DNA of 64,000 bases from an uncultured Mycoplasmatota bacterium (GCA_947305065.1 CAMZCT010000004.1:1-64000); one strand, 5' to 3'. Positions 849-25,780 are shown, counted from the stretch's first letter. Notes: generated from the letters alone by a model not told the origin. Translations and numbers: made by a program.

Positions 849-1022
849 AAAAATGTAAAATGTTATTATAAAAGGTTGATAAGTAAGTCTATATTTTGAC
901 TTATTTTTTTTAATGACTATATCTATTATTTTTTATTTTTTTAAAGCTAGTAAAAGAGGAATAAATCTCTTTCATTTACTACTAACTATTTTACGTGATA
1001 TAATTATAACGAGGTGTTATAT

Positions 1023-1310
1023 ATGATACTTAGTTGGGAAATGTGTCAGCAAACTGTTAAAGGCTGGAGAGTTGTAGTTTTTTTCATGCTTATTGCTAGA
1101 ATAGTTGTTCCAACTATTATTATAATGACGGGTTTAGTTTCTGTTTATAATGCTGTTTTTAAAGGTACTGCTGATGAAACTGTAAAATCATGGAAACAAA
1201 TCGCTATAAAAATAGCTGCAGCTGTTATTATATTTTATGTTCCATATCTAATGAGTTCTGCTGTTAAGTTATTTACAAATGCTAAAGAAGATGATGATGT
1301 TTATATCTAG
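1023..1310 (+). CDS. two-TM pilin-like module protein, copy 1 (no C-terminal domain)
   Basis: CQQTVKGWRVV...VVPTIIIMTG...KSWKQIAIKIAAAVIIFYVPYL; paralogous to the next four ORFs; ATG after GAGGTG RBS. Confidence 0.7.
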   Translation: MILSWEMCQQTVKGWRVVVFFMLIARIVVPTIIIMTGLVSVYNAVFKGTADETVKSWKQIAIKIAAAVIIFYVPYLMSSAVKLFTNAKEDDDVYI

Positions 1311-1380
1311 CTTGTCCACAGGGAATTGCTAGAGTAACAAATTATACTGCAAATAAAATTGGATTAAGGAGTTGATTAAG

Positions 1381-2328
1381 ATGTTAATGGCTATTGATAT
1401 CTGTCAAAATACTGTAAATGCTTGGAGAATAGTGGGATACTTTATAACAATAATAAAAATAATTGTTCCAATAGTTATAATAGTTACAGGTGTGGTGCCT
1501 ATATTTAACGTAATAGTAAAAGGCTCTGCTGAAGAAATGTCTAAATCTATTATTACCTTTGGTAAAAAGCTTGCTGCTGGTATTTTAGTGTTTTATGTAC
1601 CTTATATAATTACATCTTCTGTTAATATATTAACAAGTGCTAAAGAAGACGATGATATATTTATTTGTACCTCTTGTTTTAATGAACCGAGTGGAGAAGC
1701 ATGTGTTTATCATGTAAATTTGTTAAAAAAGATAGAAGAAAATGAAATAAAAAAATTTTCTGGGGAATCACTTTCAGGTGAAATAAATACTGGTGAATTA
1801 AATGATAGTACAGAGGATGGAAATAGTACTAGTAGTGGAAGTAATTCTGCTACTGTAGAAAACTTGCTTAAAGAAGCTAAGAAAGTAACTGATTATGCAA
1901 GAGAGAATAACTTTAATTATGGAAATGCACCAATAAATCCTGCGGTTAATCACGATGCAAAATTAACTAGTTGTGATAGATGTGTTGGCTGGTTTTTGTA
2001 CAATATTGGTTATGATGATCAACCTTATCAAAATGGATTAACAGTACTTCCATTAAGGGATTATTGTGCTAGTCATGGATTTAAGAAAATAACAAGTGCA
2101 AGTGATCTTCAAGCGGGTGATATTGTATTTGTTAGTCCGAATGCAAGCGGAAATCCTGGTCATGTATATTTATTAGGTAATAATCTAGGGAATGGAATAT
2201 GGGAGAGATATGATTGTGGAAGTGTATATAGAATTAGATTAACAGGTCAATTTAGTAGTTATTCTTCACAACCATTTCATGAACCAATCGGTAGTTTTGT
2301 TTATGCTTATAGAATGCCTAACGCTTAA
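1381..2328 (+). CDS. two-TM pilin-like module + CHAP/NlpC-like amidase domain, copy 2
   Basis: shared N-terminus, CxxC-x7-C motif, then SCDRCVGWFLYNIG...LQAGDIVFVSPNASGNPGHVYLLG typical of Cys-His peptidoglycan hydrolases. Confidence 0.7.
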   Translation: MLMAIDICQNTVNAWRIVGYFITIIKIIVPIVIIVTGVVPIFNVIVKGSAEEMSKSIITFGKKLAAGILVFYVPYIITSSVNILTSAKEDDDIFICTSCFNEPSGEACVYHVNLLKKIEENEIKKFSGESLSGEINTGELNDSTEDGNSTSSGSNSATVENLLKEAKKVTDYARENNFNYGNAPINPAVNHDAKLTSCDRCVGWFLYNIGYDDQPYQNGLTVLPLRDYCASHGFKKITSASDLQAGDIVFVSPNASGNPGHVYLLGNNLGNGIWERYDCGSVYRIRLTGQFSSYSSQPFHEPIGSFVYAYRMPNA

Positions 2329-2354
2329 TTAAGCGATATAAAAGGAAGTATAAT

Positions 2355-2528
2355 ATGATATTAGTTGTTGGTATATGTCAAAATACAGTAAAAGTTTGGC
2401 AAATAGTTGATGTTATTTTTACGATACTAAGAATATTAATACCAATTATTATCATTGTTACCAGTCTAGTACCTCTTTTTAAGGCATTAATAAGCGGTAT
2501 AGCAATTGTTTATGATGATTATAAATAA
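2355..2528 (+). CDS. truncated two-TM module, copy 3 (57 aa)
   Basis: not in ORF track; MILVVGICQNTVKVWQIVDVIFTILRILIPIIIIVTSLVPLFKALISGIAIVYDDYK, same N-terminal motif with RBS AAGGAAG. Confidence 0.6.
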   Translation: MILVVGICQNTVKVWQIVDVIFTILRILIPIIIIVTSLVPLFKALISGIAIVYDDYK

Positions 2529-2549
2529 AGAAAAAGAGAAGTGATTAAA

Positions 2550-3593
2550 ATGATTCAATTATTGGATGCTATGATATGTCAAAATACAGTAAAGGGTTGG
2601 AGAGTAGTAGGACTTTTAGTAACTATAATTAAAATACTTGTTCCGGTAATAATTATTGTTACTAGTATTGTACCTATATTTAATTCTTTTTTAAAAGGAA
2701 CTGCCGAGGAAACTATAAAATCATGGAAACAAGTCGGTAGAAAGATAGCTGCTGGAGTTATTGTTTTTTTGATTCCTTCTTTAATTTCAGCATTAGTAAA
2801 ACTAATGGCTAATGTTGAGTTGGTTAATGATGATGCTTTAATATGTTCAACATGTTTAAGTTCACCTGGTGGAAGAGAATGTCAAGCATTTGTTAATAAT
2901 TTAGATAGAATGTTAGAAGAGGAGAAGAAAAGATTTGAAGGTGAGAAATTATCTGGAGAAACAAAAACATCTGAAATGGGTGAAGCAGAAAGCAGTGAAA
3001 GTCCTAATACTAAAAATGGATCTAAAGTAGCTGTACCTGGATCAGGTAATACTCAAGCGGGTGATTATAGAGACATAGCTAATGCTGCGTATGAAGGAGA
3101 TAGAGCAGCTAGACAACAAATAATTGATGTATTAGCTCCTGCTGCACAAGTAGCATGGAAAAGGGATGGTTATTTACCTTCTGTATTAATAGCACAAGCT
3201 ATCATGGAATCAGGATGGTTGAAATCTCAACTTGCTTACGATTATAATAATGTTATGAGTATGAATACAGACTTAAATAATAGTTTATGGACGTCTATTG
3301 ATTGGGATGGTACATCTACTAAAATAAGAGTTGTACATGGCGGTGATGGTAATAATCATTATACTTATGATGAAATGCGTGTTTATAAAAGTGTAGAAGA
3401 ATGCTTTTTAGATTATTCTCATTTTGCAACTACTTATAAAAATGGTAAATATGCTGGAATAATAGGAAATAAAGATCCAAATTATGTAATAGAAGCTTTT
3501 ATGCCTGGTTATACAGAATCTGTTTCAGCTAGAGATCAAGTAAGAAAAATAATTAGTGATTATGATTTAACCAAATATGATATAGATAGATAA
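2550..3593 (+). CDS. two-TM pilin-like module + glucosaminidase-type domain, copy 4
   Basis: shared N-terminus; C-terminal LPSVLIAQAIMESGWLKSQLAYDYNNVMSM...YKSVEECFLDYSHF typical of the mannosyl-glycoprotein endo-beta-N-acetylglucosaminidase family. Confidence 0.75.
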   Translation: MIQLLDAMICQNTVKGWRVVGLLVTIIKILVPVIIIVTSIVPIFNSFLKGTAEETIKSWKQVGRKIAAGVIVFLIPSLISALVKLMANVELVNDDALICSTCLSSPGGRECQAFVNNLDRMLEEEKKRFEGEKLSGETKTSEMGEAESSESPNTKNGSKVAVPGSGNTQAGDYRDIANAAYEGDRAARQQIIDVLAPAAQVAWKRDGYLPSVLIAQAIMESGWLKSQLAYDYNNVMSMNTDLNNSLWTSIDWDGTSTKIRVVHGGDGNNHYTYDEMRVYKSVEECFLDYSHFATTYKNGKYAGIIGNKDPNYVIEAFMPGYTESVSARDQVRKIISDYDLTKYDIDR

Positions 3594-3610
3594 AGTAAAG
3601 GAAGATAGAT

Positions 3611-4102
3611 ATGTTATTAGAATCATTTATATGTCAAAACACAGTAAAGGGTTGGAGAGTAGTAGGAGTTTTAGTAACTATAATTAAAATACTTGTTCCA
3701 GTAATAATTATTGTTACTAGTATTGTACCTATATTTAATTCTTTATTAAAAGGTAATGCAGATGAAACTATAAAATCATGGCAACAAATTGGTAGAAAGA
3801 TAGCTGCTGGAGTTATTGTATTTTTAATACCAACTCTTGTAGGATCGTCTGTAAAGATTTTCGTAGGAGAGGATTATCAATCTAGTGATGTAAGTTATTG
3901 TGTGGATTGTTTTGCAAATCCTGTTGGCGATGATTGTACTAAACATGTTAATGATTTTGATACTGCTGAGGAAAGAGAAGCAGAAGAGATTAAACAGATT
4001 CAAAAAGAAGAGCAGAAGAAGGAAGATAATGCAGATGAAAGTGTTATTGAAGGTGGTTCTGTAGATACAAATAAGATGGGAACATCTGATCCAAGTAATT
4101 AG
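3611..4102 (+). CDS. two-TM pilin-like module, Cys motif and acidic/charged tail, copy 5
   Basis: N-terminus nearly identical to copy 4; CVDCFANPVGDDC; no enzymatic domain recognised. Confidence 0.7.
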   Translation: MLLESFICQNTVKGWRVVGVLVTIIKILVPVIIIVTSIVPIFNSLLKGNADETIKSWQQIGRKIAAGVIVFLIPTLVGSSVKIFVGEDYQSSDVSYCVDCFANPVGDDCTKHVNDFDTAEEREAEEIKQIQKEEQKKEDNADESVIEGGSVDTNKMGTSDPSN

Positions 4103-4117
4103 TAAGGGAATGATACT

Positions 4118-5143
4118 ATGTTTCTAGTAAATTTTTGTCAAGAAACGGTTAATGCTTGGAAGTTAGCTGGAATATTAGTATTGATAGTTAGAGTAATGGT
4201 GCCAATAGTAATAATTATAACGTGTTTGGTACCTTTTTTGGATGCCTTAATTAAGGGAGATTCTAAAACTCTATTTGATGCTGGTAAAACTATGTTTAAA
4301 AAGATATTTGCGGGTTTAATAGTATTTTTTATACCAACTATTATTTCTACAACAGTGAATATTTTAGTAAATAGTGATTATGTAAATGAAAAAGTTAAAG
4401 TATGTTCTGTTTGTTTAGATAAACCCAACGGGGATGAATGTAATAGAGCTGTCGAGGAACAAAAAAGATTATTAGAGGAAGAAACAGAAGAATTTAAAGA
4501 AGAAGAAATAAATGGTAGTGTTGATACTTCTGAATTAAAAGATAATGAGGTGGATTCTAATCAAGAAAGTAATAGCAACAGAGTTAAGGGAACTATTAAT
4601 ATAATAATTGGAGATTCTAGAACAGTTGGTATGTGTGCATCTTTTACTGGTAATTGGACTGGATGTAATAAAGGTGATCCTTTTATTAATGGTAACAATA
4701 TTTATATTTCAAAAGGTTCAACGGGATATTCGTGGTTTGATAGTTCGGCAGTTCCAAGTGTTAATACAATATTAAATGCGGGAGCTGGAACAACGTATAA
4801 TATTATTTCTTTAATGGGTGTAAATTATTTATTAAGTGATATAGATAAGTACATTGTTAAATATAATGAATTGGCGCTTGGTAGTTGGGCAAAGCATAAT
4901 ATTATCATAGTTTCAGTTAATCCTGTTGATGAATCTGTTGAATCACAAAATGGATATAGTACTAAAAATTCTGATATAGAAAGTTTTAATGAGAAGTTAA
5001 AAAATGGAATATTAGGTAAAAGTAATATGACGTATTGTGATGTATATAATCAGATAAAAGACAATTTTGGAACAGAGGATGGACTTCATTATAACGATAC
5101 TACCTATCAAACAATTTATAACAAAATTATGCAATGTGTATAA
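4118..5143 (+). CDS. two-TM pilin-like module + SGNH-hydrolase-like domain, copy 6
   Basis: shared N-terminus; IIIGDSRTVGM (GDS block) ... MGVNYL ... DGLHY (DxxH block). Confidence 0.7.
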   Translation: MFLVNFCQETVNAWKLAGILVLIVRVMVPIVIIITCLVPFLDALIKGDSKTLFDAGKTMFKKIFAGLIVFFIPTIISTTVNILVNSDYVNEKVKVCSVCLDKPNGDECNRAVEEQKRLLEEETEEFKEEEINGSVDTSELKDNEVDSNQESNSNRVKGTINIIIGDSRTVGMCASFTGNWTGCNKGDPFINGNNIYISKGSTGYSWFDSSAVPSVNTILNAGAGTTYNIISLMGVNYLLSDIDKYIVKYNELALGSWAKHNIIIVSVNPVDESVESQNGYSTKNSDIESFNEKLKNGILGKSNMTYCDVYNQIKDNFGTEDGLHYNDTTYQTIYNKIMQCV

Positions 5144-23069: not shown

Positions 23070-23660
23070 GATGCTCTTAATGAAATGTTATTTGATGCAA
23101 ATGTAAATACTAATGATTCATCAGCAAAAAACAAAATTGATACTTGGTATAGAAATAATCTTTTAAATACTAATTATGAACAATATTTGGAGGATACTGT
23201 ATACTGTAATAATAGACTTGTTGCCGATTATGGTAATTGGTCGCCTAATAATAGTAATACAAAATGGGGGATGTATTATGCGACGTATAGTAATCGTATG
23301 AAACCAGCTGATTTAACTTGTCCTAATGAAAGAGATAGATTTACGGTTAGTTCTAGTATTGGTAATGGAATGTTAACATATCCTATTGGGATGTTAACAG
23401 CTCCAGAAGCTTTTTTAGCTAATGATGGTAACCAAGCTAATTCATATTTAAAATCTAGTAATACGTTCTTTACTATGTCACCGTCTACTTTTTATCGTGA
23501 TAATCAATCTGCGATAGCAATATCCCCAAGTGGTGTTTATAATGAGAGTGCTTTGGTATGGTATGGCTATGGATTAAGACCGGTTATCTCTTTGAAACCA
23601 GATGTGGAAATTGCTTCTGGTACGGGAACGATACTAGACCCATATATATTGAAGGATTAG
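23070..23660 (+). pseudogene. 5'-truncated copy of the surface protein encoded at 23813
   Basis: aligns with the C-terminal third of the downstream ORF (IDTWYRNNLL...LEDTVYCNNR / IDIWYMENLA...LEDTVFCNAR; GLRPVISLKPDVEIASGTGTILDPYIL); lacks signal/TM region. Confidence 0.65.
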
Positions 23661-23812
23661 TATATTGATATATTTATTGAGATAAAATTGAAAGTTCGAT
23701 TAAGAACTTTCTTTTTAAAATACTTTTTTGTTTATGATTGTACCATTGAATAAGAATAATATAGTAAATTATTATTTCTTTTGTTATAATTCTTATAGTA
23801 GGAGTATTAGAC

Positions 23813-25780
23813 ATGAAGTTACGAAAAAGAAGAAAATTCGTTAATCATAGAAAAAGAATTATGTACTTTTCTTTATTTTTTGTGTTGTTATTTATTTCGG
23901 TTGGATATGCTTATTTGAGTGCAACTCTATCTATTACTGGTCATACAGAAATAAGTGCTAATACTTGGGATATTCATTTTGAAAATTTAACAGTTACTCA
24001 AGGTAGTGTAAATGCTACAACACCTGCGGCTATACAAAGTAATACGACTAGTATTAATTATTCAGTAGAACTAGGTATGCCTGGAGACTTCTATGAATTT
24101 GAAGTTGATATAGTAAATAGTGGAACACTACCTGGTAAGGTTTCTATAGTAAATATACAGGGAATTGCTTCTGGACTAGAACAATATATAGAAACTTCTG
24201 TTGAATATAGTTATGGAATTCCTGTAAGTGTTGATGATATATTGAATTCTAATTCTAGAAAAAGGATAATAGTTAGAGTTGCTTATACAGATGATTTAAA
24301 TAATTTACCGGGTAGTAATATATCATTGGATTTAGTGTTTAGCATTGATTTTAATCAAACGAATCAAAATGTAAATAGTGCTGCTGGTTTTTTACAAAAC
24401 TTATTAACTGAAGGTAATACATGTATTGTTAAATACGAAGGACAGGTAACGGATAGTGTAGGAATTACTAAAACAGCAACAAATGTTTATTATGATAGAT
24501 GTTTAGATAAAAGAAATGTTATATTTGGCGGATTTTGTTGGCAGATAATACGTAGTACGGAGACTGGTGGACTTAAGATGATTTATAATGGAGAACCGGT
24601 AAATGGAGAATGTAATTCGTCAAGAGCGGATCATAAAGGAATAGTTCAAGTAGATAGAACTGATGATGATTTAGGTGCACAATATATGTATGGAAGTTCA
24701 TATACTTATGATACAACAACAGGTGAATTTACTCTTTTAGATACAACTACTGGTACTTTCAGTGAATCAAATTATGATGATTATGTAGGAAAGTACACAT
24801 GTAAAAACTTAACAGGTACTTGTGATACTATTTATTATGTTTTAATTCATTTTTACAATGCTTATGCTTATGTTATATCTTATGAAATTGCTGATACCAA
24901 TTATGCTGGAATAGGAAAAAGTGCTTACAATGGTAATACGATATTTCCAGGAGAGGTTGGATATATGTTAAACAAATATTATGATCGACTTAGTGGTTCT
25001 CCAACGAGTGAATCATTAATGGGAAATGATGTTTCATATTCCAATGGTGTTTATACTTTACTTCCAGCAAGTGGTGAATCAGTTCTTGGAACAACAAAAG
25101 ATAATAATCATCATTATACCTGTGATAATACAACTGGGACGTGCAGTACTGTAAGATTCTATTATTATGAAGATAATTATATAGAATTAAATGGGGAAGC
25201 GAACATTGAAGATACTGTAGATGGTATGTTGAAAGTTAATAGATATAATTCTGTTGCAAAATCAATTATAGATATTTGGTATATGGAAAATTTGGCAAAT
25301 GAAACAGATAAGTTAGAAGATACAGTATTTTGTAATGCTAGGGATATAATAAATCAAGCTACAACTGGATGGAATAAAAATGGTGATTTAAGTACATATA
25401 TGTATTTTAGAAATTCTGTTGATAATGGGGATATAACTTGTCCTAATGTAACCGATCAATTTGCTGTAGGTAATAATCTTGCTAAATTAACCTACCCGGT
25501 GGCTCTAACTATGCATGAAGATTTATATAATTTAGTAGATGGTCTTCCGTTTGGAGAGGGTGAACAATATGTTGCAACTAATGATTGGTGGATGACTATG
25601 TCTCCTAGACATTATGACTTGTATTATCCTTATATTCTTTCAGTGTATAATGAGGGACAAATGTCAAGTTATGGTACTGTAGCTACTGAACTTAGTATAC
25701 GACCTGTTGTTTCTCTTTCACATCAAACACGTATTGTATCGGGAACTGGTTCTGAGGCAGATCCATGGATAGTTGAATAA
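23813..25780 (+). CDS. exported surface protein with TasA/SipW-substrate-like N-terminus
   Basis: basic N-terminus + TM (ISVGYAYLSATLSITG) and C-terminal LSIRPVVSLSHQTRIVSGTGSEADPWIVE repeat-type domain. Confidence 0.7.
   Translation: MKLRKRRKFVNHRKRIMYFSLFFVLLFISVGYAYLSATLSITGHTEISANTWDIHFENLTVTQGSVNATTPAAIQSNTTSINYSVELGMPGDFYEFEVDIVNSGTLPGKVSIVNIQGIASGLEQYIETSVEYSYGIPVSVDDILNSNSRKRIIVRVAYTDDLNNLPGSNISLDLVFSIDFNQTNQNVNSAAGFLQNLLTEGNTCIVKYEGQVTDSVGITKTATNVYYDRCLDKRNVIFGGFCWQIIRSTETGGLKMIYNGEPVNGECNSSRADHKGIVQVDRTDDDLGAQYMYGSSYTYDTTTGEFTLLDTTTGTFSESNYDDYVGKYTCKNLTGTCDTIYYVLIHFYNAYAYVISYEIADTNYAGIGKSAYNGNTIFPGEVGYMLNKYYDRLSGSPTSESLMGNDVSYSNGVYTLLPASGESVLGTTKDNNHHYTCDNTTGTCSTVRFYYYEDNYIELNGEANIEDTVDGMLKVNRYNSVAKSIIDIWYMENLANETDKLEDTVFCNARDIINQATTGWNKNGDLSTYMYFRNSVDNGDITCPNVTDQFAVGNNLAKLTYPVALTMHEDLYNLVDGLPFGEGEQYVATNDWWMTMSPRHYDLYYPYILSVYNEGQMSSYGTVATELSIRPVVSLSHQTRIVSGTGSEADPWIVE

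Follow-up and report, generated by a model that had tools for sequence, protein, structure and literature searches.

A tandem array of VirB2-like pilin modules with wall-active heads and its putative link to a relaxase-free type IV secretion system of RF39 Bacilli

We analyzed a 64,000-nucleotide stretch of DNA (the window; bases 1-64000 of contig C4, CAMZCT010000004.1, GCA_947305065.1) from the 1.67 Mb genome of an uncultured Mycoplasmatota bacterium. At 1023-5143, on the plus strand, it contains six tandem copies of a two-helix module of ~85-120 amino acids (aa), some of them joined to enzymes predicted to act on the cell wall. Sequence comparison indicates that the modules are homologous to VirB2-like pilins, and we favor, at a probability of about 0.55, the explanation that such pilins expanded in this lineage to form the array, which belongs with a relaxase-free type IV secretion system (T4SS) occurring throughout one family of RF39 Bacilli. 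An earlier sequence-only reading of the window had proposed a pilin-like module, wall-active heads and display on the outside, all of which we retain; the array does not appear to be free-standing, as homologous pilins are encoded in a chromosomal T4SS across the family.

The six consecutive genes with a common N-terminus described in that reading were recovered, the third being truncated and probably a decayed copy. The genes are separated by gaps of 15-70 bases, and the copies are 35-63% identical to the one at 3611-4102. The hairpin is complete in five of the six, and distinct C-terminal enzyme heads are found on three. Four copies have a Cys motif, as had been stated; its spacing here is CxxC-x8-C, and the CxxC-x7-C spacing that had been given occurs in the pilin encoded at this genome's T4SS locus.

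The relationship to pilins was examined with a profile built from 39 short pilins adjoining VirB4/VirB6 in the T4SS loci of other species (the T4SS-only profile) and with 1,800 decoys in which each residue was shuffled only among residues of its own class, hydrophobic or polar. The window copies scored 81, 81, 78, 75, 62 and 34 bits, compared with 24 bits for the top decoy and 7.6 bits for the top unrelated open reading frame of the window. A window module aligned to the pilin of the T4SS locus on contig C1 of the same genome over 98 residues without gaps, CxxC included (27% identity, pairwise E 1e-18), and Cys, Trp and Pro positions were common to modules and T4SS-locus pilins. Among 89 short relatives, 42 matched the PF18895 (T4SS_pilin) model with E no higher than 0.01 (best 6.1e-7), in the same register on the hairpin wherever the alignment was displayed; the model also matched 16 of 116 N-terminal fusions and 3 of 43 C-terminal fusions, and CagC and TrbC/VirB2 models matched module relatives weakly. 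The profile scores and the comparative evidence support the T4SS-pilin-like nature of the N-terminus that had been suggested. Searching PDB sequences with the module profile returned mostly G-protein-coupled receptor helices (E 0.012 and worse), which were rejected as a reflection of hydrophobicity.

Coordinates of the array and its promoter-like site in the window (scores are those of the T4SS-only profile)
Feature	Position	Strand	Description	Score (bits)
Promoter-like site	975..1004	+	TTTACT-18-TATAAT, TG before -10; immediately ahead of the array; only a consensus match	
Module 1	1023..1310	+	95 aa; complete hairpin, stop precedes Cys motif, headless	61.6
Module 2	1381..2328	+	315 aa; module at about residues 1-115, linker, NlpC/CHAP-like head	75.2
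Module 3	2355..2528	+	57 aa; truncated, first helix only	34.1
Module 4	2550..3593	+	347 aa; module, Ser/Gly-rich linker, glucosaminidase head	81.2
Module 5	3611..4102	+	163 aa; module with Cys motif, acidic tail, without enzyme head	80.8
Module 6	4118..5143	+	341 aa; module, linker, SGNH/GDSL hydrolase head (GDSR, DGLHY)	77.8

The sequence-only reading had reported that VirB4 and VirB6 genes were absent, which is true of the window only; they escaped notice because they sit elsewhere in the genome, on contig C1. A module search of this genome located further copies on contigs C2 (two), C12 and C1. One C1 copy, a pilin-like protein of 123 aa, is clustered with genes for another pilin, a VirB6-like protein of 1410 aa, PrgI and a VirB4 divided between two genes (193 and 596 aa). 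Downstream of these come a VirB1-like protein of 904 aa with a SpoIID domain, a lipoprotein, a VirD4 of 1003 aa (PF02534, 2.3e-56) and then housekeeping genes. No relaxase gene adjoins this locus, the genome-wide search covering the MOBP family only. The model nearest to its VirB4 is that of the mycoplasma integrative and conjugative element (ICE), NF045975 (Mbov_0397 VirB4 family), at 2e-106, which is below the model cut-off, and the VirD4 of a relative scored above the CD1115 family cut-off. Genes for VirB4, VirB3/PrgI, VirB6, VirD4 and a VirB1-like protein occur together in the C1 locus and in 80 further loci. Judged by its gene content, the C1 locus is a relaxase-free chromosomal Gram-positive (MPF_FATA-like) T4SS.

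The further loci came from searching named genomes with the longer VirB4 part (596 aa), which gave at least 535 related stretches; we studied the 80 best. These 80 stretches were 74-90% identical and included Candidatus Coprovivens excrementavium and Candidatus Onthocola stercoravium; Coprovivens was assigned to the GTDB order RF39 by Gilroy et al. (PMC8035907). The usual gene order was a short pilin, none to several pilin-module proteins, a signal-peptide pilin, VirB6, PrgI, VirB4N, VirB4C, a wall enzyme, a lipoprotein and VirD4, with the wall enzyme varying among SpoIID, M23 and lysozyme-type domains. Modules were present in 57 of the 60 loci with enough upstream DNA, and in 42 of the 60 a module protein exceeded 230 aa. 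Hydrolase-headed modules were also found inside the T4SS operon, an example being a pilin with Amidase_3 and NlpC domains in locus L098.

We surveyed 297 genomes of the class, comprising 39 of the family and 258 other Bacilli. Modules were found in 36 of the 39 family genomes and in one of the 258 others, and the notion that the module is general in Bacilli was rejected on this count. Among the family genomes tested, a split-VirB4 orthologue was detected in 33 of 35 with modules and in 0 of 3 lacking them (Fisher p=0.0012, relatedness ignored). VirB4 of the T4SS was 64-75% identical across the family. ICE-type VirB4 loci, several of them in the same genomes, had no module in them. The distribution of the modules, together with the identity among the array copies and their scores of 34-81 bits against ≤24 for decoys, argues that the array is not a product of chance. 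The sole module outside the family, L218:268-1197 (G319, from another family), is fused to a C39-like peptidase and lies on a 2.3 kb contig of a metagenome-assembled genome (MAG) with 5% contamination; it is possibly a contaminant.

The heads were tabulated across 302 distinct module proteins, of which 143 were short, 41 had C-terminal heads as in the window, 116 had N-terminal extensions and 2 had both; wall hydrolases were numerous among these additions. Domains on the 43 C-fused or doubly fused proteins included VanY, NlpC/P60, CHAP, C39, M23, GDSL, glucosaminidase, GH114, NAGPA and YkuD. On the 116 N-fused proteins we found Amidase_3 (8), NlpC/P60 (7), C39 (4), M15 (2) and lysozyme-like domains (2); most of their N-terminal ectodomains matched no family, and in the AlphaFold2 model of one such fusion (L088) the ectodomain had a pLDDT < 50 over long stretches. 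Within the window, the module 4 head matched Glucosaminidase (PF01832, E=4.9e-16). The module 6 head matched PF00657 at E=0.0056, retained GDSR and DGLHY, and clustered with six heads from relatives (cluster of 7). The module 2 head gave a weak Pfam match to NlpC/CHAP (0.049) and fell by BLAST into a cluster with heads that matched CHAP at 1.8e-5 or had DCSGF. Pfam matches, motifs and head clusters agree with the differing C-termini (CHAP/NlpC-like, glucosaminidase-like, none, SGNH-like) read earlier from the window. PDB searches with the NlpC/CHAP-like and SGNH heads gave weak matches or nothing, and in plasmid and phage collections no record covered 80% of the fusion, the matches listed falling mainly on the glucosaminidase head and being annotated as glucosaminidases or lysins. 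The 41 C-terminal heads formed 17 clusters, and the C-fusion label required 10 changes on the module tree, at least 4 of them forced by well-supported branches. Since the same head type occurs on distant modules and different heads occur on neighboring ones, heads have been exchanged. The tally of C-terminal domains in related genomes, which had been recommended as a check, revealed many head types, and the tabulated heads favor the proposed modular set of interchangeable, presumably wall-active, enzymes.

AlphaFold2 predicted the module as a two-helix hairpin, with helices at 12-47 and 50-84 and a mean pLDDT of 83.9. Topology signals were examined in 295 modules (139 short, 41 C-fused, 115 N-fused). 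The mean net charge of the loop was +2.1 to +2.4 and the flanks were neutral or negative; Cys residues lay on both sides of the hairpin, ahead of helix 1 and beyond helix 2, in 214 of the 295 modules and within the loop in 11. This pattern fits a cytoplasmic loop with both termini outside, therefore heads at either end would be outside, and the outer ends are probably tied by disulfides. The extracellular display anticipated in the sequence-only reading gains support from loop charge and Cys placement.

Under the favored explanation, plain pilins would be the bulk subunits of the T4SS, and headed pilins would be minor or tip subunits or membrane-held partners. Wall-active enzymes fused to either outer end would face outward, with the subunit residing in the membrane or drawn into a pilus, and at a contact site they could cut or bind peptidoglycan, breaching the wall of the cell itself, that of a neighbor or both. 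Feeding on, or exchange with, neighboring cells would be the likeliest purpose, since the family is without de novo purine synthesis: PurC was found in none of 36 family genomes and in all 14 controls. RF39 has been reported to lack de novo nucleotide synthesis (PMC13155120) and may need muropeptide scavenging (PMC10868615). We tentatively extend this to a Gram-positive T4SS pilus with minor subunits that act as exchangeable tools, wall hydrolases and adhesin-like ectodomains being mounted on either end of a VirB2-like pilin, by which this genome-reduced, nucleotide-auxotrophic family might breach, feed on or trade with its neighbors in parallel to the epibiotic Patescibacteria; this fuller picture is possible, and we hold it with considerable doubt. 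Penicillin-binding protein (PBP) transpeptidases were present in 28 of 28 family genomes, and we therefore rejected the argument that a missing wall in RF39 would oblige the enzymes to act on other cells.

Several observations weigh against a T4SS role for the array. The fusions of the window lie outside the T4SS locus, headed modules could be simple anchors, and the T4SS already has a dedicated VirB1-like wall enzyme. Two module-bearing genomes (G139 and G294) were without split VirB4, for which MAG gaps are a possible reason, and in the first survey five genomes (G007, G012, G015, G025 and G028) had modules without split VirB4, G007 and G012 having the window clade. As to the pilin assignment, unrelated membrane families matched a few module relatives at 1e-5 to 1e-4 in the Pfam scan, which marks the noise level. 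Of the comparisons advised earlier, that with PF18895 gave matches for short relatives, whereas the window copies themselves reached 0.12, below the curated cut-off; Foldseek of the module against the PDB returned nothing at E < 0.001, a two-helix hairpin being too plain to decide.

The main rival is that a retired pilin hairpin serves as a plain membrane anchor for enzymes that act on the cell's own wall in growth, division or spore formation, with no role in the T4SS. The organism has a wall of its own, as the PBP transpeptidases indicate, and LD-transpeptidase, VanY carboxypeptidase, M23, NlpC and SGNH heads on C-fusions outside the T4SS locus would suit such work; the window copies, moreover, form one long-stemmed genus-level clade from four genomes. 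However, modules and T4SS are lost together, heads are fused to the same pilin family within the T4SS operon as well, and the headless copies at 3611-4102 and 1023-1310 have nothing to anchor, which leaves the plain anchor possible but doubtful. If, instead, the T4SS was a conjugative mating-pair apparatus, the heads would be VirB1-like wall openers for DNA transfer. The CD1115-family VirD4 coupling protein and the proximity of VirB4 to the mycoplasma ICE family point this way, but no relaxase adjoins the locus, MOBP (the only relaxase family searched genome-wide) occurs in 9 of 36 family genomes and never next to split VirB4, the family-wide conservation of VirB4 does not look mobile, and the ICE-type T4SSs of the same genomes are without modules; we regard this explanation as improbable. 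It is more improbable still that the module is an unrelated two-helix anchor that merely resembles a pilin. In its favor, neither Foldseek nor the PDB sequence search produced a pilin match, but the decoy test, the common Cys/Trp/Pro positions and the PF18895 matches argue for homology.

Among known systems, the T4SS of Patescibacteria (PMC12102498) resembles that of RF39 in being a chromosomal MPF_FATA-like T4SS of a monoderm without a linked relaxase, with tandem divergent PF18895-type pilins, in a genome-reduced nucleotide auxotroph. RF39 differs in its Bacilli host, its two-gene VirB4, the presence of VirD4 and a VirB1-like enzyme, and pilins that bear wall-hydrolase or other heads at either end, fusions that the consulted passages of the Patescibacteria papers do not mention. 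An essential VirB2-like pilin array is described for Southlakia epibionticum (PMC10633639). The VirB1-type hydrolases of Gram-positive systems (PrgK, TraG of pIP501 and Orf14 of Tn916) are likewise membrane-held extracellular peptidoglycan hydrolases serving a T4SS, but each is a dedicated protein with its own anchor, whereas in RF39 many interchangeable versions of the enzymes are borne by subunits of the pilin family, and a separate VirB1-like protein is present as well. The mycoplasma ICE T4SS supplies the nearest NCBIfam model for the RF39 VirB4, which however is split and below the model cut-off; mycoplasma ICEs are without VirB1- and VirB8-like parts (PMC12857230). With the PF18895 family the window copies share the hairpin, whereas they score below its cut-off and their heads are foreign to it.

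A 2025 review (PMC12857230) and PMC12102498 state that VirB2 pilins are absent from Gram-positive T4SSs save those of Patescibacteria, and the review raises the question whether Gram-positive T4SSs do anything besides moving DNA. A second, unrelated monoderm lineage with VirB2-like arrays, enzyme-bearing pilins and a family-wide T4SS without a linked relaxase would make both points testable, and it suggests one concrete way in which the uncultured gut bacteria of RF39, which are without nucleotide synthesis, might interact with other cells. Our literature search, which left preprints and most subscription papers outside, found neither a T4SS described for RF39 nor T4SS pilins described as fused to hydrolases.

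Other features were observed in the same genome (G000) and in the T4SS loci. Two more ICE-type VirB4 loci of G000 (L209, C32:828-3194; L211, C1:127615-129837) have no pilin module near, and a MOBP relaxase lies at C1:136523-136894. On C2 (L014:6768-11629, ~86.8-91.6 kb), a CHAP-like-headed module adjoins WXG100-type genes and a gene for a WXG-like protein that includes a glucosaminidase domain, which places a headed pilin beside a type VII secretion system-type cluster. The C12 copy (L016:4765-5405) is decayed: the module frame stops early, and a separate downstream frame resembles a former NlpC/CHAP-type head. Ahead of the T4SS in locus L203 are a gene for a T2SSE-type ATPase (4.1e-28) and small genes resembling those of pseudopilins; at L013:9696-12523 and L203:1-5162, such small genes and one whose 340-367 aa product weakly matches a CbiA/MinD-like model lie directly upstream of the T4SS pilins, which suggests a Tad-like pilus linked to the T4SS in these two loci. 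Promoter-like sites of the type found upstream of the array show only a slight excess over shuffles in the DNA of the window. At 23085-25780 of the window, a 191 aa gene is followed by a 655 aa gene with a similar C-terminal region (RPVISL...GTG...DP), and the 191 aa gene may have arisen by partial duplication of a surface-protein gene.

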